From: Candidatus Bathyarchaeota archaeon
GTDB taxonomy: Archaea; Thermoproteota; Bathyarchaeia; 40CM-2-53-6
Length of the DNA: 59,301 bases
Direction of reading: 5' to 3'
Assembly (NCBI GenBank): GCA_005888755.1
Contig: VBBQ01000028.1
Coordinates: 4,358 to 63,658, forward strand
Shown here: positions 36,431-59,301 of the stretch, in pieces
Layout of the letters: each line of letters starts with the position of its first letter
Position numbering within the stretch: the stretch's first letter is position 1
Made by a program: the position numbers and the translations under genes
The notes under the pieces: generated by a model
Told to the model about the DNA's origin: nothing
The model's input: the letters and a program-made list of their open reading frames with translations, nothing else
Database searches by the model: none

Positions 36431-36551
36431 CCCACGAACATAATCGTTAGAGATGACCGAAGCTGCGCCAAACAACAACCAACGCTAACCATGGCCATAG
36501 CGCCATGCTAAACCCGATAAACCCCCCGACCAGCGCCAAATAGAGACAGAG

Positions 36552-39551: not shown

Positions 39552-40301
39552 TTAGATCACTTTGGCCTCTTCGTGCAGAACCTTGACCAGTATCGGAACG
39601 GCTTCAACGCCCTTCCCTAGTACCCTGCCTGGGGGTCTAGGTGGAGGATATTGAATTGAGACAATTTCCAGAATGCCCGGAAACGGTTGAGGCTCCTTCA
39701 CAAGAATAGGTTTCTTCCTAGCCGAGACTAATTCTCTAAGCGACGCGTACCGAGGAACGGTCAAATCTTTTTCAGCGGTGAATGCGGACGGAAGGGTAGT
39801 CTCGACAACGATTACTCCTCCTTCAACTTCTCGATGAGCGATCGCCTTGCCATCGGAGACGTCGAGTTTGACGATTTGAGTCGCGCAGGGAATCCCGAGA
39901 AGTTCGGCTACCATTTGCCCGACTTGCTGGTTGTCGTCGTCAACACCCTTCTTGCCAAACAAGAGAACGTCGAATTCGACTGATTTCAATTCCGCAGCAA
40001 TGGCCCGGGCAACGGCGCTTGGGTCATCTGGAAAATTTTCGCTCTTGAGATGAATCGCCTTGTCCGCGCCAAGGGCCAGCGCTTTGAGAATTACGCTAGT
40101 TGACTTCTCGGGTCCGAGGGTGAGAACAGTGACCTCTCCGCCGTGTTTCTCCTTTAGCTGAACACCCTGTTCTAGGGCATATTCTTCGTAAGGATTGACT
40201 ACAAACTCTGCATCGCTTGTGACAATTGATTTCCCATCAGGTGCAATCTTGATGCGCGTTGCTGTGTCCGGAACGCGCCGCACGCACACGACTACTTTCA
40301 G
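39552..40301 (-). CDS. etfB: Electron transfer flavoprotein beta subunit (FixA)
   Basis: The protein of about 249 residues has VCVRRVPDTATRIKI, NPYEEYALEQGVQLKE, LTLGPEKSTSVILKALALGA and the AMP-binding region LLFGKKGVDDDNQQVGQM. Family members start M-K-I-V-V-C-V; here KVVVCVRRVPDT is preceded by CTG at 40301 with a stop two codons further up and no ATG/GTG/TTG before it, so CTG is the likely start. GTG at 40289 would cut the first strand. Confidence 0.93.
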   Translation of the reverse strand: MKVVVCVRRVPDTATRIKIAPDGKSIVTSDAEFVVNPYEEYALEQGVQLKEKHGGEVTVLTLGPEKSTSVILKALALGADKAIHLKSENFPDDPSAVARAIAAELKSVEFDVLLFGKKGVDDDNQQVGQMVAELLGIPCATQIVKLDVSDGKAIAHREVEGGVIVVETTLPSAFTAEKDLTVPRYASLRELVSARKKPILVKEPQPFPGILEIVSIQYPPPRPPGRVLGKGVEAVPILVKVLHEEAKVI

Positions 40302-40428
40302 TTCTTAGCCGCCTAGCCGGACCCAAATTGGGCCGAAGAATAAGGTTTCCCTGAGCACAGTGGGTTCCTGTACTAATTATGGTAAACAGTTAAAGCTCGG
40401 AACCGCTGAGCTCTGGAATGAGAATAAT

Positions 40429-40716
40429 ATGGCTTTAGGAGACCCGTTCCAGATCCTACTGATACTGGGCGTACTAGCCGTCATACTGATCTGGGGACCA
40501 CAAAAAATACCAGAACTAGCGAGATCAATAGGAAGAGCACGCAAAGAATTCGACGACGCCTCAAAGGGACTAACAAACCCACTCTCACCCTCTCAGCCAG
40601 CTCTGTCCACGTCTGATCCGCTAACTGATACAGCGCACAAATTGGGGATCAACACCCAAGGCAAGACGCGCCAAGAAATATCTGACGACATCGTAAAAGC
40701 AGCTCAGACAAAGTAG
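40429..40716 (+). CDS. tatA: TatA-type twin-arginine translocase subunit
   Basis: The 95-residue protein has one N-terminal helix (FQILLILGVLAVILIWGPQK), the amphipathic segment KIPELARSIGRARKEFDDA and a polar tail. This fits TatA/B. The ATG at 40429 is preferred over the open frame to 40360, which adds an unlikely segment. tatC follows. Confidence 0.9.
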   Translation: MALGDPFQILLILGVLAVILIWGPQKIPELARSIGRARKEFDDASKGLTNPLSPSQPALSTSDPLTDTAHKLGINTQGKTRQEISDDIVKAAQTK

Positions 40717-40832
40717 TCAGACAAGCCCTAGCCTCCAAGACCAGCTCTGCACCTAGTTGTCGTTAGGCCAGTTGAACCCGCTCAATGATTTTATTGACTA
40801 TCTGCCCGGTCCGCAAAGGATAGTGGAATCCA

Positions 40833-41723
40833 CTGTCAGGAGAACAATCGCCGGAAAAAGTTCTACCTCTTTGGGACCACATTTCAGAGCTTTCAAGACG
40901 AATAAAAATCTGGATCTATTCCTTCGCCATTGCGACCCTGTTCTATCTTGTTGTTCCGTCTGACCTTTCGTTCTTGCAAAATCCCTTCCAAGTCTACCAT
41001 CCACTAATAACAGCGATTCTCGGCACGATAAGGACGCGACTGCTGCCGTCACAGTACATATTGATCGGAGGAACGGTCACCACACCCCTGGAACTCATCG
41101 TTGTAGGATCCGCAGTGTTCGGATTCGCTACAAGTATCCCCGTGCTCGCGTATGAGATATACAAATTTGTGGACCCAGCAATCAAGGCCAGCGAGAAACA
41201 GTCGGTATACCCGTTCGTCGCAGCATTTTCGATCCTGTTCATGGTAGGCGCTTCGTTTGCTTTTTTCGTTCTCTTACCGTTCATATTCTACTTCTCTATC
41301 CCCTTCTTCCAAGCGGTAGGAATATCCACCTTCATTTTCGCGGACCAGTTCTACAACCTCGTTTTCTTCGTCATCGTACTCTCAGGCTTTGCCTTCACAA
41401 TTCCCGTCTTCTTCGTCCTACTGGTCAAATTGCACGTTCTCGGGACGAAGATGCTTACCAAGAATCGGAAGTACGTCTGGGCATCACTCTTAGTTCTAAC
41501 TGCCATAGCTTCCCCCGACGGGGGACCCTTGGCAGACGTTGCATTGTTTGTTCCAATCATCATACTCCTTGAAGGAGCAATCTGGTATGCAAAGAGATAC
41601 GAAAAGGGACGCGCAGAAAACGAAGTGACAACTGTGCCTTTAGAGGCAACCTGTAACTTTTGTGGGGGAGACATGGACCCGGGTGGCGTGTTCTGCGGCC
41701 GTTGTGGAAAGGCGAGAATCTGA
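40833..41723 (+). CDS. tatC: TatC translocase with C-terminal zinc ribbon
   Basis: The protein of about 296 residues is the multi-helix Tat receptor, with six hydrophobic segments. The conserved N-terminal helix (LPLWDHISELSRRIKIWIYS, which fits HLEELRRR) lies upstream of the first ATG/GTG/TTG (TTG 40974); the only plausible start after the in-frame stop at 40821 is CTG 40833. TATA-like ATTTTATTG sits near 40788. The last 20 or so residues form a zinc ribbon (CNFCGG and CGRCGK), unusual for TatC, in the cytoplasm. Confidence 0.88.
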   Translation: MSGEQSPEKVLPLWDHISELSRRIKIWIYSFAIATLFYLVVPSDLSFLQNPFQVYHPLITAILGTIRTRLLPSQYILIGGTVTTPLELIVVGSAVFGFATSIPVLAYEIYKFVDPAIKASEKQSVYPFVAAFSILFMVGASFAFFVLLPFIFYFSIPFFQAVGISTFIFADQFYNLVFFVIVLSGFAFTIPVFFVLLVKLHVLGTKMLTKNRKYVWASLLVLTAIASPDGGPLADVALFVPIIILLEGAIWYAKRYEKGRAENEVTTVPLEATCNFCGGDMDPGGVFCGRCGKARI

Positions 41724-41788
41724 CATGATCGTTGATCCACACAACGGAGCGCTCCAGATGAGTTAAAAGACCCAGATCTAGAGTCGGA

Positions 41789-41872
41789 ATTAGATGATGA
41801 ATTTCCGCAATACATGCGGACGGAGCGTTCTCAGCCGACGCAATGACGAGCGACATCGGGCGGGCTGATAAT
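41789..41872 (+). ncRNA. Candidate C/D-box-like small RNA
   Basis: ATGATGA (41794-41800) matches box C and CTGA (41865-41868) matches box D, flanked by complementary ATTA and TAAT. Internal CCGA (41835-41838) and ATGACGA (41843-41849) resemble D' and C'. A TTAAAAGA box about 27 bases upstream would start transcription here. The C-to-D' gap (34 nt) is longer than the usual 12 and contains a CCGC/GCGG hairpin, so the match is incomplete. The gap 41724-42048 holds no other gene I can support. Confidence 0.3.
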
Positions 41873-42069
41873 AACATTGTCCGCCCGAATCCCAATGCCT
41901 CTAAGATTTCACACCAACCCTGACCTTCCCGATAGCCAAAAAGGAAATTATCGTGACCAGTCTCGAAGTCTTGACAGAGTCGAAGAAATATTATAACGGG
42001 ACCAACCGGAGAATTCGAACGGACGACCAATCCTGTAGATGATCCAACCTGATAACAGTAAAGTCACAA

Positions 42070-42474
42070 CTGCTTCCTGAACTTGGCCAAATCATTCGCA
42101 GGATTCCATTTCTACTCACCACGGCAAAGGAAGACTCCAAGGCGTCGCTCTATGGCGAGAAGTACCTCAAACGACTCCTGTGGTACCTGTTCGCCGGAAC
42201 ACGCGGAGGTCCTAGCAGGGCTGAGATCATCAAGGCTCTCCAGAATCGTCCTTGCAACGCCAATCAACTTGCGCAAGTTCTCCATGTAGACTACAAAACC
42301 ATCCAACACCACGTAAGGGTTCTAGAAGAGAATGGCCTAATCGTTCCGTCCGAGAAGGGAACGTATGGTGCCGTTCTCTTTCTTACTTCTAAGATGGAAG
42401 AAGCGCTTCCGATCCTCGACGAGATTTGGACTAGAATTGGAAGAAGAAAGATAAACAAAACGAATCCGGAGTAG
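42070..42474 (+). CDS. Winged-helix regulator (archaeal wHTH family)
   Basis: This product of about 134 residues has YLKRLLWYLFAGTRGGPSRA, EIIKALQNRPCNANQLAQVL and VDYKTIQHHVRVLEENGLI, a common archaeal winged-helix family, with a C-terminal EIWTRIGRRK. The frame has no ATG, GTG or TTG before the helix; CTG at 42070 (or 42049) is the best start, and a TATTATAA box lies near 41990. It pairs with the membrane protein 11 bases downstream, as this family often does. Confidence 0.8.
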   Translation: MLPELGQIIRRIPFLLTTAKEDSKASLYGEKYLKRLLWYLFAGTRGGPSRAEIIKALQNRPCNANQLAQVLHVDYKTIQHHVRVLEENGLIVPSEKGTYGAVLFLTSKMEEALPILDEIWTRIGRRKINKTNPE

Positions 42475-42485
42475 AGTGACCAAGC

Positions 42486-42788
42486 TTGGGTCTTGCACTT
42501 TGGGCTAGCGCAATAGTTGCCTTCGCGAACATAGCCATGACCCTAGCATTATTGGCAATTTACCTCGGGACGTACGGGAAGGTCAAGTCTTCCTTCACTT
42601 TGGGTCTCGTTCTCTTTGGCAGTTTTTTCGTCGTACTCAATCTAGCCATTCTGGTATTCTGGCTGTTTCTATTCCAAAACGTGAGTTCCGCGGCCACCTT
42701 CGTGGATCAGGCGTCCACCTACATGCTTCTTGTAAATATCGGAGAGGCCCTTGCTCTAGCGAACCTCCTCCGAGTGACCTGGAAATAG
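42486..42788 (+). CDS. Membrane protein paired with wHTH regulator
   Basis: The 100-residue protein has three hydrophobic helices (ASAIVAFANIAMTLALLAIY, LGLVLFGSFFVVLNLAILVF, and a third near the end). It starts 11 bases after the regulator, the typical pairing in archaea where the membrane partner may sense a signal for the wHTH protein. Confidence 0.7.
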   Translation: MGLALWASAIVAFANIAMTLALLAIYLGTYGKVKSSFTLGLVLFGSFFVVLNLAILVFWLFLFQNVSSAATFVDQASTYMLLVNIGEALALANLLRVTWK

Positions 42789-43031
42789 GGCAGAACTACT
42801 CCTCGCGCCCATTCTCCAAATGCAAGCTCAAATCACTTGGAAATTCGCTCCTCACTAGCTCAGACCGTTCGCTAGAGTTCTTAGAGATTCGATTCGCGAT
42901 AGACATCTGCGGTGATATTTCCTATTGCGAGTAGCCCTTTCCGGCTATCTCCAGGTAGAATATGGGCCAGATTCCGGGGAGATTTGGAAAAACCGTTAAG
43001 AATCAATCCAAGCCATGTCAGCCAGAAACCC

Positions 43032-43343
43032 TTGAAAGGGAATAAGAAGACTGACGAGAAAGCCGAGTCCGAACAGGACTCAAGCAACAAGATATCCCGA
43101 AGAGACTTCTTGAAATTCGGCGTAGGAGCCGCTGCGGTAGCAGCTGGCGCCACAGCCCTCATGGGCAAGATTCCCATTCCAGCAGAGCAGCCGAAAACCC
43201 CGGCGACGAACGATAGCACGGAGCCAATTGTTGCCTCTGTAAGCGGTGATCAACTAACCGTCATGAATGGCCAGGTATCCGTGAAGGTGAAAGATGCAGA
43301 ATTGGCCGCCCAGATTGCAGACAAGCTACGAGCAGGGAACTAG
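43032..43343 (+). CDS. Small Tat-signal protein
   Basis: The product of about 103 residues has a twin-arginine signal SRRDFLKFGVGAAAVAAGAT (S-R-R-x-F-L-K) after a charged N-region, then a short mature part of about 50 residues. The TTG at 43032 gives a normal n-region; upstream starts give an improbably long one. The gene directly before DUF4331 could supply an export signal for it, and tatA/tatC are 2 kb away. Confidence 0.75.
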   Translation: MKGNKKTDEKAESEQDSSNKISRRDFLKFGVGAAAVAAGATALMGKIPIPAEQPKTPATNDSTEPIVASVSGDQLTVMNGQVSVKVKDAELAAQIADKLRAGN

Positions 43344-43346
43344 ACG

Positions 43347-44777
43347 ATGACATCCCATAGAGAAGCCCCCAAGATCTCTAAGGACCCGGTCGCTGACAAC
43401 ACCGACCTCTACGCTTTTGTTAGCCCGGACAAGCCTGACACAGCAACCATACTGGCTAACTACATTCCATTGGAGGAACCAGCGGGAGGCCCCAACTTCA
43501 ACACCTTCGGGGACGACGTGCTCTATGAGATAGTCATAGACAACAACGGCGACGGAATAGAAGACATAACCTACCAGTTCAGATTCAAGACCAAGATCGG
43601 AAACCCGGACACCTTCCTCTACAACACCGGCCCAATCGGATCCCTCACCGACCCCTCATGGAACGTAAAACAATCTTACTCAGTCACGAAGGTAGTTGGA
43701 CCAAGAAGGACGGGTGTCTCGACGATTCTAGGCAGGAACCTCCCAACTCCGCCCGTCAACATCGGACCTCGGTCAACGCCGAACTATGCCAACCTCGCAA
43801 ACGCCGCCATCAACTCATTGAGCGATGGCTCGACGGTCTTCGCCGGCCAGAGAGGCGAAGCGTTCTACGTAGATCTAGGATCAATATTCGATCTCGGAGC
43901 TCTCAGACCAGTCCAGAATTTCCACCTCATACCCACACCGGCGGCTCCAGGCGTTGACGCCACAAAAGGGTTCAGCGTTCATAGCATCGCATTACAAGTA
44001 GCTAAGAATAAACTGACATCCGATGGAGCAAACCCCAGTGATCCGGTGGGAAAGAACCAGACGATCGGAATATGGGCATCCGCGAGTAGACGAAGAGCAG
44101 CCATCCTTCCGACCGACGGAGACGACAACCAATCAGGCGACAACCGGTCCGGCGAAGTGGTCACTGGGCCTTTTACACAAGTGTCCCGGCTTGGAATGCC
44201 TCTGATCAATGAGGTAATCATCCCGTTGGGAAAGAAAGATTTCTGGAACACATCGCTTCCTAGGTTTGACTCTCAGTTCCTCAAATATTACCAGACACCA
44301 GAACTTCAGAAACTACTCCCCGTGCTCTACCCCGGAGTCTTTCCGAACCTGGCAGCGGTAACCCAGGCACGCGCAGACCTCATCGCGATATTGTTGACTG
44401 GAATACCAGCGGGCATAATTCCAGGGTTCCAGAATTTCACAGGGCCTCTCCAGGCTGACTACCTCCGTCTCAACCTTGCAGTTCCTCCGAACACCACGAA
44501 CCCCAACCGACTGGGACTCGTAGGTGGAGACCCGGCAGGATTCCCCAACGGACGAAGAGTACTAGACGACGTCGTGGACATCGAGATCAAGGCGATAGCC
44601 GGCGCGACCTTACCACTAGTAGACAAGAACTTCACGACCGACGGTGCAGTTGGTCTAGTGACTCAGGGCATCCCGGCAGGTAACCCTGTCCAGCCACCAA
44701 ATACTGCGCCTTTCTTGTCGGTATTTCCCTACCTCCCGCACCCAGTGCCCGGCTACGAACACTCCCACGACCCATAA
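43347..44777 (+). CDS. DUF4331 protein
   Basis: The 476-residue protein begins with MTSHREAPKISKDPVADNTD, the HREAP signature of DUF4331, followed by a beta-rich sequence with many Asp/Asn (VIDNNGDGIEDITYQFRF). Homologs usually carry their own signal peptide, which this one lacks. It follows the Tat-signal gene by three bases. Function is not known; it may be a surface protein. Confidence 0.85.
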   Translation: MTSHREAPKISKDPVADNTDLYAFVSPDKPDTATILANYIPLEEPAGGPNFNTFGDDVLYEIVIDNNGDGIEDITYQFRFKTKIGNPDTFLYNTGPIGSLTDPSWNVKQSYSVTKVVGPRRTGVSTILGRNLPTPPVNIGPRSTPNYANLANAAINSLSDGSTVFAGQRGEAFYVDLGSIFDLGALRPVQNFHLIPTPAAPGVDATKGFSVHSIALQVAKNKLTSDGANPSDPVGKNQTIGIWASASRRRAAILPTDGDDNQSGDNRSGEVVTGPFTQVSRLGMPLINEVIIPLGKKDFWNTSLPRFDSQFLKYYQTPELQKLLPVLYPGVFPNLAAVTQARADLIAILLTGIPAGIIPGFQNFTGPLQADYLRLNLAVPPNTTNPNRLGLVGGDPAGFPNGRRVLDDVVDIEIKAIAGATLPLVDKNFTTDGAVGLVTQGIPAGNPVQPPNTAPFLSVFPYLPHPVPGYEHSHDP

Positions 44778-44978
44778 ACTGGCCCAAAGCGTGGCCTTTA
44801 CGGCCGCACTCTCGATTGTTTCTCCGGTCATTCGAGAACCTGCAGTGCCGACTCTATGCTAATTGCGCAGAAGTTCTTCATCTCACACGCTGTGATTCGG
44901 CAGATCCGGGATCTCTGCTAGATCAGAATTAGTTTTCAGAGAATCATTTCAAAAGTCTTATTCTACCATAGCCCTACA

Positions 44979-46046
44979 TTGCTTGGATACCAGTTGCCCT
45001 GCACGGTCATTGTCGGCGGATTCTTCGGAGACGAGGGGAAGGGAAAGATAGCCGCATATCTAGCGATGAAGGACAAGCCAGACATCTGTGTCAGGGGCGG
45101 TAACGGACCCAATGCTGGCCATACTGTTATCCACGGTGGGGTCCAGTACTCTCTCAGACTCATCCCGAGCGGCTTTGTGAACCGCTCGACTCGACTCCTA
45201 ATTGGACCCGGAGTACCTGTTGATCCGGCGGTATTGCTTGAAGAGCTCCGGAAAACCGACTCGGAGCGAAGAATCGAGGTTGACAATCAGTGCGCCATCG
45301 TTGAACCACGCCACAAAGAGCAGGAATCACGATCAGATCACCTCTCAAAGAAAGTAGGGTCCACAAAGAGCGGAGTAGGAGCATGCAACGCAGAACGAGC
45401 CTTGAGAATGGCCAAGATGGCTCAGACCATTCCCAGCCTCAAACCGTACGTAGGCGATACCGTTAGGGAAATTCAGCAGGCGCTTTCGGAGAACAAGAAG
45501 ATCATGATCGAGGGGACCCAGGGCACCTTTCTCAGTCTCTATCATGGAACCTATCCCTACGTCACGTCCAAGGATACAACTGCTTCGGCAGCTTGTGCCG
45601 ATGTCGGGGTGGGTCCCACTCAAGTTGACGAGGTAATAGTCATTTTCAAAGCATATGTGACACGAGTCGGCGAAGGACCCCTAGAGGGACAACTAGATCG
45701 GGATGAGGTTGCACGCCGAGGGTGGACCGAGTTCGGAACTGTTACCGGTCGAGAGAGAAGAGCCGCACCTTTCGATTTCAAACTCGCAAAGAGGGCAGTC
45801 CAGCTCAACGGGGCAACCCAGATCGCGCTAACCAAGCTCGATGTGCTGTTCCCAAGCGCAAAAGGAGCACGCCATCTGGAGGATCTCGAAAAACCCGCGA
45901 GGGCGTTTATCTCCAAGATTGAGAACGAAACCGGGGTCAAAGTGACGCTGATAGGTACTGGTCCCAACGAGGAGGACTTGATAGACCTAAGGGCTATTGT
46001 GAGTAGTCCCAGACTCAGAACCGCCCCGATCGTCCGGCAAAATTGA
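44979..46046 (+). CDS. purA: Adenylosuccinate synthetase, short archaeal form
   Basis: The 355-residue enzyme joins IMP and aspartate for AMP synthesis. It has the P-loop GFFGDEGKGKIAAYLA, GGNGPNAGHTVI and the loop GVGPTQVDEVIVIFKAYVTR. It is shorter than the bacterial enzyme, as in archaea. A TTG start close to a T/A-rich box suggests a leaderless transcript. Its end overlaps the ECF gene on the other strand by 60 bases. Confidence 0.93.
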   Translation: MLGYQLPCTVIVGGFFGDEGKGKIAAYLAMKDKPDICVRGGNGPNAGHTVIHGGVQYSLRLIPSGFVNRSTRLLIGPGVPVDPAVLLEELRKTDSERRIEVDNQCAIVEPRHKEQESRSDHLSKKVGSTKSGVGACNAERALRMAKMAQTIPSLKPYVGDTVREIQQALSENKKIMIEGTQGTFLSLYHGTYPYVTSKDTTASAACADVGVGPTQVDEVIVIFKAYVTRVGEGPLEGQLDRDEVARRGWTEFGTVTGRERRAAPFDFKLAKRAVQLNGATQIALTKLDVLFPSAKGARHLEDLEKPARAFISKIENETGVKVTLIGTGPNEEDLIDLRAIVSSPRLRTAPIVRQN

Positions 46047-46736
46047 GGGATTCTTCGAGGCCCCTGCGATAGTCAGGGTCCTACGAATCCACTCTCGACC
46101 CGCTACTAGCTGAGGAGCCCTTCTCAAAATTGCATTTACCAAGACAAGTGAGACGATAATAGAGAATACGGCGTGAACAGCGTTGAAGATCGCTGTAAGC
46201 CCAAGAATGTAAACAACGAATCCGGTACCTGTAAGATTAATTCCCACTTGGTTGAGAACAAATTGCGCAAAACCAGTATAGTCAATGCCAAAAACGACCT
46301 GCGCGAGGACTATCAGGTAAAGATAGTTCACAAGAGTCATGATAACGACTCTTGTCGCAACACCTGCAACGGTCATTATGGAACCAGTTGTCAGGAGCTT
46401 GTGTTTTCCCAGTCTCGAAGCCAGCATTAACCCGCCGTATGTTGAGAGAACTGATAGGAACTTTAGGCTCGCACCGAATGGTCCTGCCCCACCGGGTGCC
46501 GCTGTAAGGATCGTCCCGTGAACCGCCGCGGTGATCAGTCCAGCTACAGGACCAAATATGAGAAACGCGGTGACATCAACTATCTCGGCAATATCGAATT
46601 TCAAGTAGAACAAGATCGGAAACGACGGCTGAATCACAGGCGGAGCGAGCAAGGAGATTAGCGCTGCGAGCGCACCGAATGTTGCGGCCCCGGCTATTAC
46701 AACCGTTGGTTTGAGGCTGGCTTCCATTGAGCGCAT
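45987..46736 (-). CDS. ECF transporter S component, RibU-like
   Basis: The 249-residue protein has about six hydrophobic helices; PILFYLKFDIAEIVDVTAFL then IFGPVAGLITAAVHG fits the RibU/FmnP riboflavin-type S components. Its 3' end overlaps purA on the other strand. Riboflavin uptake would supply flavin for F420 (cofC/cofD next door) and ETF, but this link is inference. Confidence 0.75.
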   Translation of the reverse strand: MRSMEASLKPTVVIAGAATFGALAALISLLAPPVIQPSFPILFYLKFDIAEIVDVTAFLIFGPVAGLITAAVHGTILTAAPGGAGPFGASLKFLSVLSTYGGLMLASRLGKHKLLTTGSIMTVAGVATRVVIMTLVNYLYLIVLAQVVFGIDYTGFAQFVLNQVGINLTGTGFVVYILGLTAIFNAVHAVFSIIVSLVLVNAILRRAPQLVAGREWIRRTLTIAGASKNPSILPDDRGGSESGTTHNSP

Positions 46737-46797
46737 TTCAGCCGGCGAGCAAGAATCTACTCATAAAAGAGTTTCTACCCAGAAATGAGTCGCAAGA

Positions 46798-47475
46798 TTA
46801 GTCGAACTTCTTGGAGCTTTGGGCAAGAACGTGAAGTAGTGTCATTTCCTGAAGACATCTTGCAGTGTGAGTTTTTCCATGAGGATCCTTTCTAGCAATG
46901 GCGATCAGATCTTCGAGAGTGTCGACGTCGAACGACAATCGTGGGTTTGAGATGGAATAAACAGCAAATCCTGTCTTCTGTGCTGCTCTGAGATGGGTGC
47001 TAAAGCTCCATCTTCCATACGCGGGTGCGATAATGTTAGGAGGCTCTCGAACCATCACATTGGTTCCGCCCTTTAGGGAAGGGGCCAGGACAACCTTCTC
47101 GGCCGTGCCCCCCACCGAGTATAGCTCTTTCAAATCCCGTGCTTCCAGCATCGGGATGTCGGCCAGGAGGACAGCGACGGACGATGCCTTCTCGCGCATC
47201 GCAAAGAGCGTTGACTGTCGGATGCCTGCGTTAAGCCCCTGTCCCTCCTGATGGAGAAATGTTCCCTGAGGTAAGTTTGCCTCTTTCTCGACATTCGGAT
47301 CAGGGGAAACGACTAGGACTCGGCTGAAAAGCTGAGATTCTTTGACTGCAGTCAGCACGTCTTCCAACAAAGCGATGACTAGTTTTTTCTTGTCTTGTGG
47401 GCTTAGGGAGCGAACGAGCCTGCTCTTGCTTTCGACCAGTCCTTTGACTGGAATGACTGCGAAGTCTTTCGTCAA
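46798..47475 (-). CDS. cofC: 2-phospho-L-lactate guanylyltransferase
   Basis: The 225-residue protein has PVKGLVESKSRLVRSLSPQD, VVSPDPNVEKEA and ADIPMLEARDLKEL, the CofC nucleotidyltransferase signature. It activates the lactyl precursor for F420. It overlaps cofD by four bases. Confidence 0.92.
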   Translation of the reverse strand: MTKDFAVIPVKGLVESKSRLVRSLSPQDKKKLVIALLEDVLTAVKESQLFSRVLVVSPDPNVEKEANLPQGTFLHQEGQGLNAGIRQSTLFAMREKASSVAVLLADIPMLEARDLKELYSVGGTAEKVVLAPSLKGGTNVMVREPPNIIAPAYGRWSFSTHLRAAQKTGFAVYSISNPRLSFDVDTLEDLIAIARKDPHGKTHTARCLQEMTLLHVLAQSSKKFD

Positions 47476-48410: not shown

Positions 48411-48460
48411 GCTGAAGCGCCTGCGAGAGGGCTTGCGCCAGCCCAGCCTCTAGTTAAAGA

Positions 48461-48856
48461 CTAGCGCTTCTTCGAACCAGCTTTTTCGAGAATGTGGTGT
48501 GCTTGTCTCAGCTTGTAGACTGCAGTCCGGAGATTATGGTACCCTTCCAAGGAAGACTTGCCGCGAAGCTCTGTCGCGTGACGTAGCGATTCCGAAGATT
48601 CCTTAACCAGCGGGATAGGCTCGGCGTTCCTTTTCCTCACTGGAACAGGAGGGTCCTCGTCCTCGAGACCGTAGGTGAGGGAGTAGAGCAGACTGCTGTA
48701 TTCGGCTGCTTCCTCGGCCCACCAGACTTTCTTCTCCGATTCCGCTCCACCCTTGGAGAGACTGTCCAGCGCCGTGTCGAGCTTGGCTCTCGCCTCGTCC
48801 AAGGCCTTGCCCACTTTCTCTTCTAGCACTCGCTGTTCCTCAGCAGGATCCATCAA
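48461..48856 (-). CDS. Helical hypothetical protein
   Basis: The 131-residue protein (ATG-ATG start; the second ATG may be used) is mostly alpha-helical and charged, with no recognised domain. It lies between glmS and cofD, 16 bases after glmS in the same direction. A role in glmS or F420 context is not evident. Confidence 0.6.
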   Translation of the reverse strand: MMDPAEEQRVLEEKVGKALDEARAKLDTALDSLSKGGAESEKKVWWAEEAAEYSSLLYSLTYGLEDEDPPVPVRKRNAEPIPLVKESSESLRHATELRGKSSLEGYHNLRTAVYKLRQAHHILEKAGSKKR

Positions 48857-48872
48857 GGAGATCGCGGCCTGA

Positions 48873-50699: not shown

Positions 50700-50748
50700 G
50701 GACGTTGCTCCTAGGGAGGCAGGTTGGCATTAAGAGTTCTTGAACGAA

Positions 50749-50825
50749 TCACGAAGGGCGCGGCACGAGAAAAACAGCTAACCCCTGGGGGTCGCATAAT
50801 AGTTAGCGGCAAAAAATAGTTACAA
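50749..50825 (+). repeat. Three-copy intergenic hairpin element, copy 3
   Basis: TCACGAAGGGCGCGGC, a near-palindrome ACCCCTGGGGGT, CGCATAATAGTTAGC, a run of A and ATAGTTAC. It matches copies at 10784 and 20835. It lies between divergent glmS and a weak small frame at 50829. Confidence 0.75.
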
Positions 50826-50828
50826 GAA

Positions 50829-51083
50829 ATGTCTGCGGAAAGCGAGTTGCAAGAAATAGAAGCATCTTTGGGAACCATCGGCCCAATTGGCTTCAAATTA
50901 CCACGGCGTCTATCTTCGACCAACTCAAAGCAGGTCAAGGGGAAACTCTTCGTGATGTTCGCAATCATAGCTGACAGTGCTCTGCTAGCAGACGTCTTCT
51001 ACAGAAAAAGGTACAATATATACTCGGGTGGGCACTGTCGACTCTTCGGTTGCTGTTTGCTGATAGCTTTCAGGCACCTCTAA
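50829..51083 (+). CDS. Weak small ORF after repeat
   Basis: An ATG at 50829 opens 84 codons with no recognised domain and a Cys-rich, odd C-terminal end. It begins right after the repeat copy. It may be a gene fragment or spurious. Confidence 0.3.
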   Translation: MSAESELQEIEASLGTIGPIGFKLPRRLSSTNSKQVKGKLFVMFAIIADSALLADVFYRKRYNIYSGGHCRLFGCCLLIAFRHL

Positions 51084-51099
51084 CTGTAATGTTCAAGGA

Positions 51100-51433
51100 A
51101 TGACTGATTATCAAACTAGGCGGTCGTCGTATGAGCCTGTCACACTGGGATGAGGGGAGTGACTCCGACCACGTAAGAGGCGTGAACCGGGATATCTGGT
51201 TGGTTAGCCACTGTAAAATCCCTGCCTTGCAATGGGCCAAGCTACCACGCTATGGGCGTGAGGGGGCGGTTGAGGTTCGATCGTTCCCTGCCAAAATGGG
51301 ACTACTCGTCTCTGAGGCGCAAGGGCTCTCAGGTGAAGCAATGAAGTGGAACCCGCCGACGACGGTAATCCCCAGAGTCGATGAGAGCAAGTCAGGTCCT
51401 CGAGCGAACCGAAGACTTGACAGAACCCTCGGG
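51100..51433 (+). repeat. 334-bp two-copy inverted element, copy B
   Basis: Matches the reverse complement of 36097-36430. Here the internal frame (from 51131) runs on to 51538, past the repeat end, and is probably not a real gene. The element sits just before the DUF2269/CopD-like membrane gene. Confidence 0.75.
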
Positions 51434-51483
51434 TGGCATATCATAATAACCAGGACGCTTCAATGCCTTACCGGCTCTAGCAC

Positions 51484-52011
51484 ATGGCCGCCGATGCCGC
51501 ATTCCTTGTTCTGTTGGTCCTCCATGTTGGCGCGATAGTAGCTTGGATGGGAGGCGCTGCGTTATTCGTCTCCGTCATCATTCCCTCGCTCTCGAAAATG
51601 TCTCCAACTTCCAGAGCCGAATTCATCCTGTCCGCTCTACCGAGATACCTTAGGTTCATTACCGGAAGCTCGATCCTAGCAATCGTAGCTGGACTCGTCC
51701 TCTACGGGTATGCGACGACCCAGACAACAAGCTCCTTTGCCCTTGCCGAGCCAGGACTCATGTACATCAATGCAGGCGCTGTACTAGGCTTAGTTGTCCT
51801 CATAATCGCCCTCGGAGTCCTGGTCCCAGCAGGCCGAAAATTCATATCACTGACAAAGCAAGCCCCGAAACCTTCAGCACAACCACCAGCTCAAGATCCG
51901 ATGGCAGCGCAACTTGCGAGTCTCCAGAAGAGAATGGGGCTAGCTGGGCGATTGGGAGTGGCCTTGCTAGGGATTGCGCTAATCCTAATGGTCGTCGGCG
52001 CCAGTATCTAG
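51484..52011 (+). CDS. Four-helix membrane protein (CopD/DUF2269-like)
   Basis: The 175-residue protein has four hydrophobic helices (LVLLVLHVGAIVAWMGGAAL first) and a polar Pro/Gln-rich segment before the last helix. The HVGAIVAWMGG motif recalls CopD/DUF2269 membrane proteins that may bind heme or copper with His residues. Assignment is tentative. Confidence 0.6.
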   Translation: MAADAAFLVLLVLHVGAIVAWMGGAALFVSVIIPSLSKMSPTSRAEFILSALPRYLRFITGSSILAIVAGLVLYGYATTQTTSSFALAEPGLMYINAGAVLGLVVLIIALGVLVPAGRKFISLTKQAPKPSAQPPAQDPMAAQLASLQKRMGLAGRLGVALLGIALILMVVGASI

Positions 52012-52142
52012 ACACGCTCGCAGAACCAGGAAAAACGCCCACCTTCTTCCTTACTCGAGAAGGGAAGCAAGGGAAGGGTTTCCATAACGCTAAATAAGCG
52101 GGCAGCCTAGTTGGAACTCATCTCTGGTGTGAACGGGGATGG

Positions 52143-53489
52143 GTGGTCATCTTTACTGGCATAAGCCCGCTCCCGAGACCCTCATCCAGGTCTAAGCACC
52201 AGAATCAGACTCCAGCTTACACAACAACTAAGCTAGGATATCGACCAAACGGGGCGCTGCGAACGCGTCAACGCCGCCGACTGATTATCGCGAAATTCGG
52301 CGGGTCCAGCCTATCCAACGGGAAAAAGATTAGCCAGGCAGCAGAATCGGTCGCCCGAGATTACTCCAAAGGAAACAGACTGGTCGTAGTGGTCAGTGCG
52401 GTCGGGAGAACTACTGATGAACTTCTCGAACTCACAAACCATGGCGCAGGAATAGTAGAAACCGACAGAGATGATATTCTTGCGATGGGCGAGAGAACCA
52501 GCGCCAGGATCTTCGCAGCATCACTGAAATCACGCGGGATACAAGCCCGTTACTTCGACCCATCAGACCGAGACTGGCCAATCATCACCGACCATGACTT
52601 TTCAAACGCAAACCCACTGAGAACACCGAGCATTCAACGAATACAAGAATATGTAAAACCGGTTGTCGAGGACGGAATTATTCCGGTCATCGGCGGTTTC
52701 ATAGGCCGAACCAGAGATGGACGAATCAGTACCCTAGGACGTGGAGGAAGCGATACCACCGCCCTCCTCCTCGCAACGGCACTCGGAGCAGACGAGGTCA
52801 TCTTGGTGACCAGCGCGCCAGGAATACTCACGGGGGACCCCAACCTGATCAGTGATACGCGTGTTCTCAGATCAATCGACATGAAAGCGTTGATTGGAAT
52901 AGCCGACAGCGGAACGAAATTCATCCATCGAAAGGCGCTGCGATACAAAGACCCAGCGATCAACATCCGAGTAATACCCAGCGCGGCAGGCAGACTCGAC
53001 GCGCAGGGCACGCAGATCACAGGCGGACCATTCCCCGATTTGGAAGTGAAGATCCATAATCCAGACCCTGTAGCCTCTATCACACTGGTAGGAAGAAACC
53101 TGCCCCAGAATCCAGAACTCATCAGGAAAGTCACGAGGATCATCAAAACGAATCTGGTCGCTGTCTCCCAAGACAACGACAGCGCGATACTCTACCTTAG
53201 TCAGGCACCAAGCCTAAGACGACAGATTTCCAGACTCCACGACGTTATTGCAAAGGATCCTCACGGTCTTGCTCTTGCGGCCCGGATGGGCATGGCGCTC
53301 ATCACCGTTAAGGGAGTCGGCTTGGAAGAGACGCCTGGAGTGGTTGCGAGAATAAGCGATGCTTTGCGGTCAAGTAACATCAACATATTCGGCGTCCTCA
53401 CCATAACATCCTCCGTCCTCGTACTCGTCGACTGGAAGGTCAGGAAACAAGCTGGTAGATTGATCAGAATTTCTCTGGAGAACAACTAG
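52143..53489 (+). CDS. Aspartate kinase
   Basis: The ORF encodes IIAKFGGSSLSNGKKI, GRGGSDTTALLLATAL and two C-terminal ACT domains (ITLVGRNL and ITVKGVGLEETPGVVARI). Homologs begin a few residues before AKFGG; the GTG at 52143 adds 46 residues of unlikely, Ser/Pro/Thr-rich sequence, so CTG at 52257 or 52281 is also possible. TATA-like CTAAATAAG lies near 52090. It feeds aspartate semialdehyde to the shikimate operon and to amino acids. Confidence 0.9.
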   Translation: MVIFTGISPLPRPSSRSKHQNQTPAYTTTKLGYRPNGALRTRQRRRLIIAKFGGSSLSNGKKISQAAESVARDYSKGNRLVVVVSAVGRTTDELLELTNHGAGIVETDRDDILAMGERTSARIFAASLKSRGIQARYFDPSDRDWPIITDHDFSNANPLRTPSIQRIQEYVKPVVEDGIIPVIGGFIGRTRDGRISTLGRGGSDTTALLLATALGADEVILVTSAPGILTGDPNLISDTRVLRSIDMKALIGIADSGTKFIHRKALRYKDPAINIRVIPSAAGRLDAQGTQITGGPFPDLEVKIHNPDPVASITLVGRNLPQNPELIRKVTRIIKTNLVAVSQDNDSAILYLSQAPSLRRQISRLHDVIAKDPHGLALAARMGMALITVKGVGLEETPGVVARISDALRSSNINIFGVLTITSSVLVLVDWKVRKQAGRLIRISLENN

Positions 53490-53490
53490 A

Positions 53491-54540
53491 ATGGTGAACA
53501 AGAGAAAGGTAGCCGTTCTCGGCGCTACCGGAATGATGGGTCAGAAATTCGTCCAGCTACTATCCCACCACTCATGGTTCGAGGTAAGCGGTGTTGCAGC
53601 ATCGGACAAGAGCGTTGGCAAAACATACGCATCATCGATTGGATCGGGAATAGAGGCAAGCCTCCCGGACGGGCTAGGAGGACTCGTTCTTTCAGAACCC
53701 AACCCGCGGGCCCTGAACGACCCGGACCTCGCCTTCTCAGCGCTCCCTGCTGAAGTCGCCGGGCCGGTGGAGGCAGAGTTTGCTAAAGCCGGGGTGCCAG
53801 TGTTCTCCAACGCATCATCGCACAGAATGGACCAGTACGTCCCACTCCTGAATCCAGAAGTAAACCCCGAACATGCCGTTATGGTAGAAGAACAGAAACG
53901 TAAGATGAAGACTGACGGTTTCATTGTCGCCAACCCCAACTGCACCACCGCCATCCTCACGCTATCTCTCAAACCCCTTCACGACAAGTACGGGCTGGAA
54001 ACCGTCGTTGTATCCTCAATGCAAGCCGTATCCGGTGCAGGCTACCCTGGAGTCGCTTCCCTCGACATCATGCACAACGTCATCCCGTTCATCAGAAACG
54101 AAGAGGAAAAAGTCGAACATGAAACCAACAAGATACTCGGAACGATGTCGAAACCCGCGGGGATTACTGTCTCCGCGAGCTGCAACAGGGTCCCAACACT
54201 CCACGGACACATAGAAGCAGTCTTCGCCAAAACACGATCAGCTGCGACCCCTAGCGAAATCGTCAAGGCGATGAGAGAGTTCATGGGAACTCCTCAACAG
54301 CTCAAGCTCCCATCAGCGCCTGACCACCCGATTGTTGTCCGAGAAGAGGAAGATCGTCCGCAGACCAGGCTCGATGTCGATGAGGGAAACGGAATGACGG
54401 TCACCGTCGGACGGATCCGGCGAGACCCAGCGTTGAATGGTGTCAAGTACATGGCCCTCGGCCACAACCTTGTCCGCGGTGGAGCGGGGTGCTCCATCCT
54501 CAACGCCGAACTCTTCGTGGCAAAGAAGCTCATCAAGTGA
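53491..54540 (+). CDS. asd: Aspartate-semialdehyde dehydrogenase
   Basis: The 349-residue protein has VAVLGATGMMGQKFVQLLSH, the catalytic Cys in VANPNCTTAILTL, and the His in CNRVPTLHGHIEAVF. It reduces aspartyl-phosphate. It starts one base after the aspartate kinase stop. It sits upstream of ADH synthase, its product's consumer. Confidence 0.95.
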   Translation: MVNKRKVAVLGATGMMGQKFVQLLSHHSWFEVSGVAASDKSVGKTYASSIGSGIEASLPDGLGGLVLSEPNPRALNDPDLAFSALPAEVAGPVEAEFAKAGVPVFSNASSHRMDQYVPLLNPEVNPEHAVMVEEQKRKMKTDGFIVANPNCTTAILTLSLKPLHDKYGLETVVVSSMQAVSGAGYPGVASLDIMHNVIPFIRNEEEKVEHETNKILGTMSKPAGITVSASCNRVPTLHGHIEAVFAKTRSAATPSEIVKAMREFMGTPQQLKLPSAPDHPIVVREEEDRPQTRLDVDEGNGMTVTVGRIRRDPALNGVKYMALGHNLVRGGAGCSILNAELFVAKKLIK

Positions 54541-54550
54541 TCCAAGAGAA

Positions 54551-55363
54551 ATGGAGACTGGAAAAACTCGCAGATTGAGGAGGATATTCCGACATGACGG
54601 GAAGACGGTGATGATACCGATGGACCATGGAGTATCAGTTGGACCGATCGAAGGACTGGCCGACATGAGCGAGACGATCGACAATGTGGCTAAGGGAGGA
54701 GCCGACGCCGTTCTCGTCCATGCAGGTATCGCGAAAACGATTGACACTCGGGGAACGGGCCTCGTACTCCACCTTTCAGGCGCCACACGATTGACCCGCG
54801 AGCCCAACTGGAAAACGCAACTATCCACTGTCAAACTGGCCCTACGTCTAGGCGCTGATGCAGTATCTGTTCACATTAACGTCGGATCCGAGCACGAGCA
54901 ACACATGCTAGACCAGTTCTCGCGAATACTAGACGAAAGCGACGACGTCGGCTTACCAGTCCTTGCTATGATGTATCCGAGGGGGCCTAGAATCCAGAAC
55001 GAGCACGCTTACGAGGTCGTTAGCCACGCAGCTCGGCTCGGCTACGAACTAGGAGCAGACATCGTCAAGACAAACTATACTGGAGATGTTGAAAGCTTCC
55101 GAAACGTCGTCAAGAGCGTCAAAGCGCCGTTGGTCGTAGCCGGGGGGCCCAAAGCAGGCAGCGAATCCGAGACGCTCCAGCTCGTCTCAGACTCGATCAA
55201 GGCGGGAGCTGCCGGAGTGTCGATTGGGCGAAACGTGTTCCAGAACAACAGACCTACGTTGATGACCCGAGCACTCGTCGAGATAGTCCACAACGGCAGC
55301 AGCCCCACACGCGCACTCTCTATTCTTGGTGAAAGAAGTGAAAGAATTCTGGCTAGAGCCTAA
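54551..55363 (+). CDS. 2-amino-3,7-dideoxy-D-threo-hept-6-ulosonate synthase
   Basis: The 270-residue class-I aldolase-like enzyme has GKTVMIPMDHGVSVGPIEGL, MMYPRGPRIQNEHAYEVVSH, IVKTNYTG with the Schiff-base Lys, and GAAGVSIGRNVFQN. It condenses aspartate semialdehyde with a fructose-1-P-derived fragment (6-deoxy-5-ketofructose-1-P), the archaeal entry to shikimate. The ATG at 54551 is chosen over the longer open frame. Confidence 0.93.
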   Translation: METGKTRRLRRIFRHDGKTVMIPMDHGVSVGPIEGLADMSETIDNVAKGGADAVLVHAGIAKTIDTRGTGLVLHLSGATRLTREPNWKTQLSTVKLALRLGADAVSVHINVGSEHEQHMLDQFSRILDESDDVGLPVLAMMYPRGPRIQNEHAYEVVSHAARLGYELGADIVKTNYTGDVESFRNVVKSVKAPLVVAGGPKAGSESETLQLVSDSIKAGAAGVSIGRNVFQNNRPTLMTRALVEIVHNGSSPTRALSILGERSERILARA

Positions 55364-56384
55364 CCCTGATCTCTCTGCAGAAGCCATCCGCAAGATGGTT
55401 AACGAGGCTAGGCCGCACACGGTCGTCACAGACACCGACCTTAACGGAGTCTCAGCGAAAATCGCCTCGCGACGAGAAGGAACGGACATTCTCGTCACGT
55501 CAAACTTTGACGACGTGCTCGGCGCCAAGAAGAACAAGATGGCAGTAGCGCTGGAGGTTACGATTACCAAACAGAAGGACCTTGACAAAATATCTCAGGC
55601 GCTAGGACTGGGTCCTGATTATGTCCTGGTCAACTGTCCCAACTGGAAGATCATCCCGCTCGAAAATCTGATCGCAGAGGTGAAGGGTCGTTCGAAACTT
55701 CTTGCTAGAACCACGAGTTATGACGAGAGCAGGATAGCGCTCTCAACTCTGGAGCTGGGAGCCGATGGGATAACCCTCGCCTCCCATGACATGAGTGAGA
55801 TTCTCAAGACCCGAGACCTGATGCTTGGAGACCCGGAGCAGATCTCGCTCTCTACGGCTCAGGTGACAAGGGTCAAGCCCATTGAAACCGGAGCCAGAGT
55901 CTGCGTGGACACGACTGAGATTCTTGAACCCGGCGAAGGACTATTGACTGGCTCTTCGTCGCAAGCACTCTTCCTGGTGGAGGGCGAAGTACATCCCAAC
56001 CCTCATGTGAACTCGCGACCCTTCAGGGTAAACGCGGGCCCCGTCTCGTCATACGTTCTAATGGCGAAAGGAAAAACACGGTACCTCTCCGAGCTATCAG
56101 CAGGAGAAACCATACTCCTGATCGATAGGACGGGAAGAACACGGAGCGTTGACGTCGCGAGAGTAAAGATCGAACGCAGGCCGATGATTCTCGTCGAAGC
56201 GAACATCGGAAACCGAAAGATAACGACGATAGTTCAGAACGCTGAAACAGTCCGGCTAGTTACTCGAGACGGGTCCAAGTCGGTTTCCGAGATCAAGCCT
56301 GGCGACAAAGTACTGGTCCGATTCGAAGAGGGCGGGCGCCACTTTGGAGCAAAAGTTGCAGATGAGATGATTATCGAGAAGTGA
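55326..56384 (+). CDS. 3-dehydroquinate synthase II
   Basis: The 352-residue protein begins KEFWLEPNPDLS and has YVLVNCPNWKIIPLENLIAE, GADGITLAS, ALFLVEGEVHPNPHVNSRPF and RVNAGPVSSYVLM, typical of the archaeal enzyme that makes dehydroquinate from ADH by oxidative deamination. Its start (TTG 55326 or GTG 55329) overlaps the ADH synthase end by about 35 bases. Confidence 0.93.
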   Translation: MVKEVKEFWLEPNPDLSAEAIRKMVNEARPHTVVTDTDLNGVSAKIASRREGTDILVTSNFDDVLGAKKNKMAVALEVTITKQKDLDKISQALGLGPDYVLVNCPNWKIIPLENLIAEVKGRSKLLARTTSYDESRIALSTLELGADGITLASHDMSEILKTRDLMLGDPEQISLSTAQVTRVKPIETGARVCVDTTEILEPGEGLLTGSSSQALFLVEGEVHPNPHVNSRPFRVNAGPVSSYVLMAKGKTRYLSELSAGETILLIDRTGRTRSVDVARVKIERRPMILVEANIGNRKITTIVQNAETVRLVTRDGSKSVSEIKPGDKVLVRFEEGGRHFGAKVADEMIIEK

Positions 56385-57064
56385 ACCCAAAAGTCTGCGT
56401 CTCAATCTCCTCGACCGACACCCCAGAACTACTGGGCAGAGCCCAGAGGGCTGAGAGACTCTCCGCCGACCTCGTAGAAGTTCGTTTGGACAGGCTCCGG
56501 AGCTACCATGGACTCACAAAGATAGCGAGGGCCGTGGAGCGACCAATCATCGGAACAAACAGGCCCTTGTCAGAGAAAGGATCCTTCGACAGATCCGAAA
56601 CCGAACGGTTGAAGATTCTGATGGAGGCAGTAGAGGGGGGATTCCAGTACGTGGACCTGGAGCTCACGACAAGCAGGCTTGACCGCGTCATCAAGACATT
56701 CCGAGACAAAGGTGCCAAGATCATACTATCACACCATGACCACTTCAGAACACCCGATCCGGCGAAACTTGCCTCGACCCTAGCCCAATTACGGAAATTC
56801 AAACCAGATGTCTGCAAGATCGTCACAACAGCCCAGATTCCTGAAGACAATCTGACGGTTCTCAGTCTGTTGAAAGCAAACCATCAGAGCTCACCTCTGG
56901 TGAGTTTTGCAATGGGACAGGCAGGAGTCTGGTCTAGACTACTAGCACCATTCTACGGGGCCCACTTCACCTACGCTTCTCTCGAGAGAGGGCTAGAAAC
57001 CGCCCCAGGACAATCGACTATCGCTGAACTTCGACGAATCTACGAGATGCTAGGCGTGGAGTAA
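56381..57064 (+). CDS. aroD: 3-dehydroquinate dehydratase, type I
   Basis: The 227-residue protein has LVEVRLDRLRSYHGLT, the catalytic His in ILSHHDHFRTP and the Schiff-base Lys in DVCKIVTTAQ. The GTG overlaps the stop of the gene before (GTGA). Confidence 0.93.
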   Translation: MNPKVCVSISSTDTPELLGRAQRAERLSADLVEVRLDRLRSYHGLTKIARAVERPIIGTNRPLSEKGSFDRSETERLKILMEAVEGGFQYVDLELTTSRLDRVIKTFRDKGAKIILSHHDHFRTPDPAKLASTLAQLRKFKPDVCKIVTTAQIPEDNLTVLSLLKANHQSSPLVSFAMGQAGVWSRLLAPFYGAHFTYASLERGLETAPGQSTIAELRRIYEMLGVE

Positions 57065-57070
57065 CAACAC

Positions 57071-57910
57071 ATGATCAAAGGCGACACCAGAGTCCACTCT
57101 CTCTACGGATCACCAGTATCCCACAGCCTCAGCCCGGTAATCTTCAACAGGACCTTCGAGAAACTCTGCCTCAACAGTACCTATGTGCCATTCGAGGTCA
57201 GCAAAGACAAGCTAGAAGATGCAGTGGAAGCAGCCCGCACACTAGGGTTTGATGGCTTCAACGTCACTATGCCCCACAAGACCACCATCTTGTATATGCT
57301 AGATCGACTTGATAAGACCGCGGAGAAGATTGGATCTGTAAACACGGTTGCCCGAACCAAGAGAGGACTTGTTGGATACAATACCGATGGCGAGGGGGCG
57401 ATCAGGGCCCTAAGATCCTACGGTTTCGAACCCAACAACAAGCGTATACTAGTTCTGGGGGCGGGAGGAGCTGCCAAAGCGCTAGTCCATCGTCTTTCGA
57501 AGGACAACAACAAGATCCGAATTCTCAACAGAACCTTAGACAAGGCCCGACAACTAGCGGATGACGCATCTGGCCTCGGAAGAATTTCGTATGGAGAACT
57601 TGACAAGAATACTTGGGAGAATTCTCTCCATGACACAGATCTTCTAGTCAATTCGACCCCGATACGGACCTCGGCACTCGTGTCCCAACTCAAGATCCCA
57701 CTCAACAAGTTGAAGGACACAGACTGGGTCTTCGACCTCGCATACGACAAACAGAGCGAACCAATCCCTAGTGGAAGCGGCACGATAAGCCCACTAGAGA
57801 TGCTTGTACACCAGGCTGCCCTGTCCTACGAAATTTGGCTCGATGAGACCGCTCCCTTCGCTCTAATGCGATCCTCCCTCGTCGACTATCTGGGAAAGGA
57901 TTGGAAATGA
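57071..57910 (+). CDS. aroE: Shikimate dehydrogenase
   Basis: The 279-residue protein has YGSPVSHSLSPVIFNRTFE, GFNVTMPHKT with the catalytic Lys, NTDGEGAIRALRSYG and the NADP site LVLGAGGAAKALVHRL. It reduces 3-dehydroshikimate. Six bases follow aroD. Confidence 0.95.
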   Translation: MIKGDTRVHSLYGSPVSHSLSPVIFNRTFEKLCLNSTYVPFEVSKDKLEDAVEAARTLGFDGFNVTMPHKTTILYMLDRLDKTAEKIGSVNTVARTKRGLVGYNTDGEGAIRALRSYGFEPNNKRILVLGAGGAAKALVHRLSKDNNKIRILNRTLDKARQLADDASGLGRISYGELDKNTWENSLHDTDLLVNSTPIRTSALVSQLKIPLNKLKDTDWVFDLAYDKQSEPIPSGSGTISPLEMLVHQAALSYEIWLDETAPFALMRSSLVDYLGKDWK

Positions 57911-58779
57911 AAGGGACCGGTCAGGCTCTTTCATACGGAGCCATCAGCATACTAAACGCGTTTCCTACGGGGAAAGGAGGCGCCCTTGGAGTAGACCTTT
58001 GGACCCGAGCCAAAGTCAGCCTACGCGAGGGACCTGGCCCGATCTCTGGATTTGTATCCTCGGACCCGGAAGAATCCAACAGGCTCGCGATCACAGTGGT
58101 CCAGAAAACCCTAGAGCACTATGGGTACGAGCGGAAGTTGCAAGGAGAAGTCGTCACCTCATCAAACATTCCAATAGCTGTTGGTCTCAAGAGCAGCAGC
58201 GCCGCTGCCAACGCAGTCGCCTTAGCTACCGCTTCTGCCATTGATGAAAAGACAGATGATGATGGGCTAGTCGGGATTGGAGTTGAGGCATCCATCGAAT
58301 CCGGCGTAAGCCTGACAGGAGCGTACGACGATTCATTCGCGTCCTATCACGGCGGCGGTGTCCTAACAGACAATGATCGTAGAAAGGCGGAAAAAATTCT
58401 CAAGATCCCCCGAGATCTCAGGGTCCTCATACTTGTTCCGCCACGAAAAACTCGAACAGGACAGCTGGATCGGACCAGATTTGCTCCTATTCGGCGGATA
58501 TCCGAATTAGCGTACGGCGAAGCCAGCAACGGCCACATCTGGGACGCGCTCACGCTCAACGGCCTCGCGGTCGCATCCATCCTGGGAGAAGACCCCCGCC
58601 CAGCACTCTCAGCAATCGAAGCAGGCGCACTCGGAGCAGGACTGTCCGGCAAGGGCCCTGCCGTTGCCGCGATAATCGACGAGAAAACCTTGAACCCTGT
58701 GCGACAGGCTTTCGCAAGATTCGATGGACGAGTTATCGAGGCTAACCTGAACTTTTCGAAAGCGTTGATCGAGACCTGA
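57907..58779 (+). CDS. Shikimate kinase, archaeal GHMP type
   Basis: The 290-residue GHMP-fold kinase has SYGAISILNAFPTGKGGALG, the phosphate loop IAVGLKSSSAAANAVALA and GALGAGLSGKGPAVAAI near the end. It phosphorylates shikimate, unrelated to bacterial AroK. The ATG at 57907 overlaps the aroE stop (ATGA); a TTG at 57901 is also open. Confidence 0.92.
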   Translation: MKGTGQALSYGAISILNAFPTGKGGALGVDLWTRAKVSLREGPGPISGFVSSDPEESNRLAITVVQKTLEHYGYERKLQGEVVTSSNIPIAVGLKSSSAAANAVALATASAIDEKTDDDGLVGIGVEASIESGVSLTGAYDDSFASYHGGGVLTDNDRRKAEKILKIPRDLRVLILVPPRKTRTGQLDRTRFAPIRRISELAYGEASNGHIWDALTLNGLAVASILGEDPRPALSAIEAGALGAGLSGKGPAVAAIIDEKTLNPVRQAFARFDGRVIEANLNFSKALIET

Positions 58780-59301
58780 GAGCCAGAATCAAGGGTCCCC
58801 AAGCGCTGCACGGGAAAGTGAAGGCGCCCGGATCCAAGGCGTACACCCACAGAGCACTCCTCGCCTCTCTGTTGTCAGAAGGAAAATCGATTATCGATGG
58901 AGCACTGCACTGTGATGATACCCAGCGAACACTTGAAGGGATGCAACGGTTAGGAGCGAAAGTGGTTGTCAAGAAAACCCGGACAATTTCCTACGGAGTC
59001 AGGAGACCGACAACGACCAACAGACCCTTTGACTGCGGCGAGTCCGGAGCCACCCTCAGGTTCCTGACCGCGATCGCGTCTACCTCTCTAAGAACAGTTA
59101 GGCTAACGTGCAGCCCGAGACTTGCCAACAGACCGTTGGATCCGCTTGTGAAGGCAATCAACGTTCTAGGTGCCTCCGCGCGGGCGTTCTCCGACACACG
59201 CGGCTTTGAGATAATGGTCAGGGGACCTCTCCGAGGAGGAGAAGTCACGGTTCGAGGCGACATCAGCTCCCAGTTCATCTCAGGACTCCTATTCGCAGCC
59301 C
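58776..59301 (+). CDS. aroA: EPSP synthase, N-terminal part (runs off the edge)
   Basis: This fragment has HGKVKAPGSKAYTHRALLAS, the PEP/shikimate-binding CGESGATLRFLTAIAST and LANRPLDPLVKAINVLGA, matching 3-phosphoshikimate 1-carboxyvinyltransferase. In this frame no ATG/GTG/TTG lies before KVKAPGSK; a stop precedes, and CTG at 58776 overlaps the shikimate-kinase stop as CTGA, the same junction style as the other operon genes. The frame is open to the window end. Confidence 0.93.
   Translation, partial: MRARIKGPQALHGKVKAPGSKAYTHRALLASLLSEGKSIIDGALHCDDTQRTLEGMQRLGAKVVVKKTRTISYGVRRPTTTNRPFDCGESGATLRFLTAIASTSLRTVRLTCSPRLANRPLDPLVKAINVLGASARAFSDTRGFEIMVRGPLRGGEVTVRGDISSQFISGLLFAA

Follow-up and report, generated by a model that had tools for sequence, protein, structure and literature searches.

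Start Sites of Genes in the Window

The window, a stretch of 59,301 nucleotides (bases 4358-63658 of contig 13), is from a soil MAG of Bathyarchaeia type with a 2.01 Mb genome that is 95% complete. Its closest named relatives, likewise soil MAGs, are entered as Candidatus Bathyarchaeota, Crenarchaeota, or simply archaeon. Among the genes it carries are etfB, tatC, a winged-helix (wHTH), ArsR-like gene, aspartate kinase, aroA (EPSP synthase), and a transaldolase/fructose-6-P aldolase family gene (talC/fsa type). The window also holds two stretches, at 51030-51430 (plus strand) and 36100-36480 (minus strand), of a dispersed repeat of ~390 bp and ~83% identity, which has at least five near-full copies in the genome, occurs in relatives, and had no match in Rfam.

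Start columns were compared with those of 17 further species of the same genus, three of the same family, and 25 genomes belonging to other families within the order and class; the window's own genome is labeled G000 and those compared with it carry other G-numbers. Around each start the stop-to-stop frame was delimited and the distance to the next ATG, GTG, or TTG counted in codons. For etfB, tatC, the wHTH gene, aroA, and the transaldolase, the initial annotation had placed the conserved N terminus before any of these three codons, in a frame closed by a stop above; this was borne out for all five, as were the coordinates given for them.

The start codon of etfB (39552..40301, minus strand) is CTG at 40301-40299, with a TAA two codons upstream and the next standard start, GTG 40289, four codons downstream. 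CTG occupies this column in 16 of the 17 species compared within the family, with two further genera represented, and GTG in the remaining one; outside the family etfB starts with ATG or TTG. Position 1 of three NCBIfam profiles falls on the CTG at 40301, and across species the next standard start lies anywhere from 4 to 104 codons downstream, offering no consistent alternative. In tatC (40833..41723, plus strand), a TAG lies four codons above the CTG at 40833 and the next standard start is TTG 40974 (+47 codons). G014 shares this CTG, 10 other species have TTG in the same column, and in G005 the codon at the column has been lost and a standard start has arisen adjacent to it.

For the wHTH gene (42049..42474, plus strand), CTG codons at 42049 and 42070 had both been offered as starts. 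Conservation settled on 42049, the column being CTG in G014 and TTG in the other close relatives; in G009, G011, and G016 the codon was lost and a standard start arose next to it. ATA 42052 was considered as the start and rejected: conservation gave 8 ATA and 3 ATG, but the preceding codon is CTG or TTG in all close relatives. The next standard start, ATG 42394, is 115 codons downstream of CTG 42049, so the gene would be lost without the CTG start. The CTG of aroA (58776..59301, plus strand, running off the window) overlaps as CTGA the TGA stop of the preceding gene (57901..58779, plus strand; shikimate-kinase-like position). G000 and G014 have CTG, TTG fills this column in 11 other genomes of the genus, and GTG 58818 (+14 codons) comes next among the standard starts. 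Ribosome-binding or overlap signals had been proposed as a general feature of these genes. The overlap holds for aroA, and SD-like purine stretches precede the L11, PGK, and Rad50 starts described below, but etfB and the wHTH gene have no clear SD.

Two further starts in the window are less secure. Aspartate kinase (52281..53489, plus strand) may begin at CTG 52281, which would give a fitting M-I-I-A-K-F-G-G and lies within two codons of Met1 of full-length models; an in-frame GTG at 52143 is not excluded, and the start remains undecided. In the transaldolase gene (28858..29562, minus strand), the proposed ATT at 29562-29560 directly follows the transketolase stop and an AGGTGA motif, with the next ATG at 29505 (+19 codons). 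The family Met1 column, TTG or ATG in 14 species, is TCG in G000, G004, G013, and G014, and the codon one position upstream is ATT in the first three of these and ATC in G014. Initiation at ATT/ATC is a plausible and the simplest reading of this alignment, although not proven: the recurrence in four species fits the proposal, but because Met1 maps to TCG, one codon after the ATT, support is weaker than for the CTG starts.

Further Nonstandard Starts in the Genome and Genus

A genome-wide scan recovered phosphoglycerate kinase (PGK), whose start column holds CTG in 10 species, TTG in three, GTG in one, and ATG in one, with the next standard start 11 to 177 codons downstream across species. Start columns of ribosomal protein L11, pheT, gatE, and the transaldolase in relatives were surveyed by pattern searches. 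L11 has CTG, behind a purine-rich stretch, in 15 genomes of the genus; G012 and G018 have GTG instead, and one genome from a different family has ATG. PGK and L11, both recovered by the genome-wide scan, are the strongest cases of CTG starts. For Rad50, the CTG behind GGAGGGAG coincides exactly with the family Met1. Reliance on CTG varies among species, G002, G012, and G018 often using GTG or TTG.

The position of these codons, their conservation, and their interchange were observed directly: homologs within the genus keep CTG or swap it for TTG, GTG, or ATG at exactly the same column. These patterns bear on whether sequencing or assembly errors destroyed ordinary ATG, GTG, or TTG starts in the MAG, a concern raised by the fact that every genome compared is itself a MAG. 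The same CTG recurs in MAGs that are independent of one another and span up to 16 species, the variants within a column are other start codons, and no upstream ATG lost through sequence error was seen in homologs of the genus. For etfB, PGK, and L11, conservation across species disproves error, and we regard it as practically ruled out overall. It might also be that the true starts lie downstream at standard codons and that the conserved residues before them are untranslated, for which G000 offers the GTG 4 codons into etfB and that 14 codons into aroA. However, the etfB GTG is missing at this position in G015, G018, G020, G011, and G012, PGK and the wHTH protein of G000 would lose 91 and 115 residues, respectively, conserved core included, and protein conservation starts at the CTG column. 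Downstream initiation is thus very unlikely.

Codons other than NTG were also found at start columns. In pheT, ACG aligns with Met1 of the archaeal PheT model TIGR00471 and of the Pyrococcus horikoshii protein of known structure (2cxi) in 9 of 9 matched genomes, 1 to 2 bases after the pheS stop. In G000, an in-frame stop lies three codons upstream of this ACG and the next ATG ~28 codons downstream; with no standard start available, pheT probably starts at ACG. ACG likewise replaces ATG in G003 at the etfA start column and, in one relative, at that of another conserved gene. DNA topoisomerase I and an AmmeMemoRadiSam-type radical SAM gene are further candidates (ATC in both), from model positions only. 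As a caveat, the ACG and ATT readings rest on few genes. The AmmeMemoRadiSam-type gene (L217:225-1124; C32:40224 of G000, plus strand) also carries an apparent intein-like insertion directly after TTGCNWL (CHPAGAEILLSNGDKKPVEELLPGDSLWSYD).

A separate observation concerns the gatD/gatE junction (contig 13 of G000, minus strand, contig bases 74723-74800), where the two genes share one frame and nothing but a TAG parts them; conservation of this TAG extends to ~10 genomes, another genus among them. After the TAG, gatE runs for 82 codons without a standard start, and no near-cognate column is consistent; the outgroup gatE start (TTG, ATG, or, in G020, ACG) falls exactly at the TAG column. ATA was rejected as the gatE start, its column being ATA, GTA, CCA, or TTC in relatives. 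Stop readthrough and reinitiation at the stop codon both remain open.

Chance, Frequency, and RNA Editing

Were the CTGs ordinary leucine codons, other Leu codons would be expected to appear in the same columns. The start columns of tatC, aroA, the wHTH gene, etfB, PGK, and L11 contain only NTG codons in nearly every species. Among columns of conserved leucine (at least 8 species, all Leu), only 3 of 258 are restricted to CTG and TTG. Hence, the CTG starts are neither ordinary Leu codons nor products of chance or sequencing error.

Within the single genome, the coding signal ahead of the first ATG, GTG, or TTG exceeds 8 nats in 72 of 1585 genes (4.5%). In such coding prefixes CTG was the codon most enriched behind SD-like motifs (15/208, 2.1x, p=0.006), an enrichment absent from noncoding prefixes. 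A downstream frame is entered from 25 of 192 CTGA overlaps, 17 of 114 GTGA overlaps, and 94 of 1400 other stops, which puts CTGA about level with GTGA and at about twice the baseline of other stops. The distance from stop to first standard start reached at least 30 codons in 13.5% of cases vs. 7 to 9% in controls, only a mild excess. An unsupervised EM start model fitted to the single genome recovered ATG and TTG only, or settled on the upstream stop codon. Allowing CTG as a start removed unexplained coding prefixes only slightly better than allowing other codons did (z ~ -2). Nonstandard starts belong to a minority of genes, about 5%, a figure that is only rough because single-genome statistics are weak, and the main starts remain ATG and TTG. 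The suggestion of the initial annotation that such initiation is normal in the lineage thus stands as regards conservation over many species and functional classes, but not as regards the bulk of genes.

RNA editing from C to U occurs in plant organelles and could in principle restore UUG or AUG from CUG, ACG, or UCG. The differences CTG/TTG, ACG/ATG, and, in the transaldolase, TCG/TTG are indeed all T/C changes. However, species-specific nonsynonymous changes at otherwise invariant residues numbered 47 T>C vs. 50 C>T, with no excess, and editing has no account of the CTG/GTG/ATG variation in L11 or of the gain of ATT/ATC in the transaldolase. We consider editing very unlikely.

Initiator tRNA and aIF1 Paralogs

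The initiator tRNA, as read from its gene (C44:5352-5480 of G000, plus strand), has a CAT anticodon and the GGG/CCC stem. The gene has an apparent intron in or near the T arm, and most tRNA genes of G000 were found only with intron models. A pattern search for initiator-type anticodon arms with any anticodon returned no initiator other than the CAT gene. This bears on the idea that a second initiator tRNA (e.g., with anticodon CAG) or a reassigned decoding reads CUG starts specifically; because the tRNA genes are rich in introns and hard to detect, such a tRNA might have escaped notice. Further tRNAs would be needed for ACG and ATT starts, and with the search yielding the CAT gene alone we retain only a small chance for such decoding. 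Reassignment of TAG was considered and rejected as a general account: no other stop is used as often (TAG, 947/1990), and in-frame coding is not enriched after it.

We also scrutinized genes of the SUI1/aIF1 family. Most of the 21 family genomes sampled, G000 included, have two or three (maximum three), whereas in the 25 genomes of other families one or none was detected in each. The G000 paralogs lie at C37:71057-71275, C32:20997-21206, and C3:1163-1372. Paralog 1 is the canonical zinc-knuckle aIF1. Paralogs 2 and 3 contain the SUI1 domain (65.0 and 35.1 bits, respectively, vs. the Pfam cut-off of 25.5) and, from sequence only, lack the zinc knuckle, paralog 2 keeping the basic loop RRWGK and paralog 3 having HHTGR in its place.

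In Pyrococcus, aIF1 destabilizes incorrect initiation complexes and its basic loop binds the 30S subunit; eIF1 suppresses non-AUG starts, and start selection in archaea rests on a homologous core that includes e/aIF1 (PMC6237735). Haloferax volcanii has a second SUI1-domain gene, HVO_B0284, beside the essential aIF1, and this second gene is dispensable (PMC3828320), unlike the present case, in which two to three paralogs are retained across a family and at most one was detected in its relatives. It is only hypothesized that the paralogs bring about or permit CUG starts, with the causal link untested; given the dispensable Haloferax copy, a higher copy number need not by itself make start choice less strict.

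Discussion

Our best explanation, to which we assign a probability of roughly 0.88, is that CUG is a regular start codon in this Bathyarchaeia-type family, interchangeable with UUG, GUG, and AUG, and used with an ordinary CAU initiator under relaxed near-cognate selection. CUG, ACG, and AUU/AUC are each one base from AUG and only a CAU initiator was found, which makes relaxed start selection the simplest mechanism. Start choice would then be loosened toward codons with one mismatch to AUG, a range that would take in CUG firmly, ACG (pheT) probably, and AUU/AUC (transaldolase) plausibly, with CUG presumably read by the standard CAU-anticodon initiator and not by a changed tRNA. Methionine as the first residue and aIF2/aIF1-dependent decoding are inferences made without protein or ribosome data, as is the proposal that the additional SUI1/aIF1-like paralogs may tune stringency. 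A wider reading, in which the family as a whole has loosened to a eukaryote-like set (CUG, ACG, AUU/AUC) serving as ordinary starts of essential genes, with aIF1 expansion as cause or partner, is tentative and we do not favor it at present.

Isolated near-cognate starts exist in bacteria, such as the AUU of Escherichia coli infC. NCBI translation table 11 permits CTG, ATT, ATC, and ATA, the same kind of one-mismatch codons used with a CAU initiator. In contrast to such isolated cases, CTG here is conserved genus-wide in many unrelated housekeeping genes and freely swapped with TTG. Eukaryotic near-cognate initiation, restrained by eIF1, draws on the same codon set of CUG, ACG, and AUU/AUC, but is mostly low-level or regulatory, whereas here, in a prokaryote, core genes have no other start. 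The start codons named in a review of archaeal initiation are limited to AUG, GUG, and UUG (PMC7531240). No report of CTG starts as an archaeal lineage trait was found in the full-text literature searched, which leaves out most subscription papers.

Prodigal allows only ATG, GTG, and TTG starts, CTG being excluded by design (PMC2848648). Gene callers of this type would clip core genes in the family, as had been predicted from the window alone, or drop them, the wHTH gene being lost whole. Clipped or dropped genes would bias studies of soil archaea that rely on marker genes, domains, or structures. For the biology of the family, these data point to a naturally occurring lineage where housekeeping genes have CUG, and probably ACG, as their sole start alongside an expanded aIF1 family, making the question of start-codon stringency in archaea and eukaryotes directly testable.
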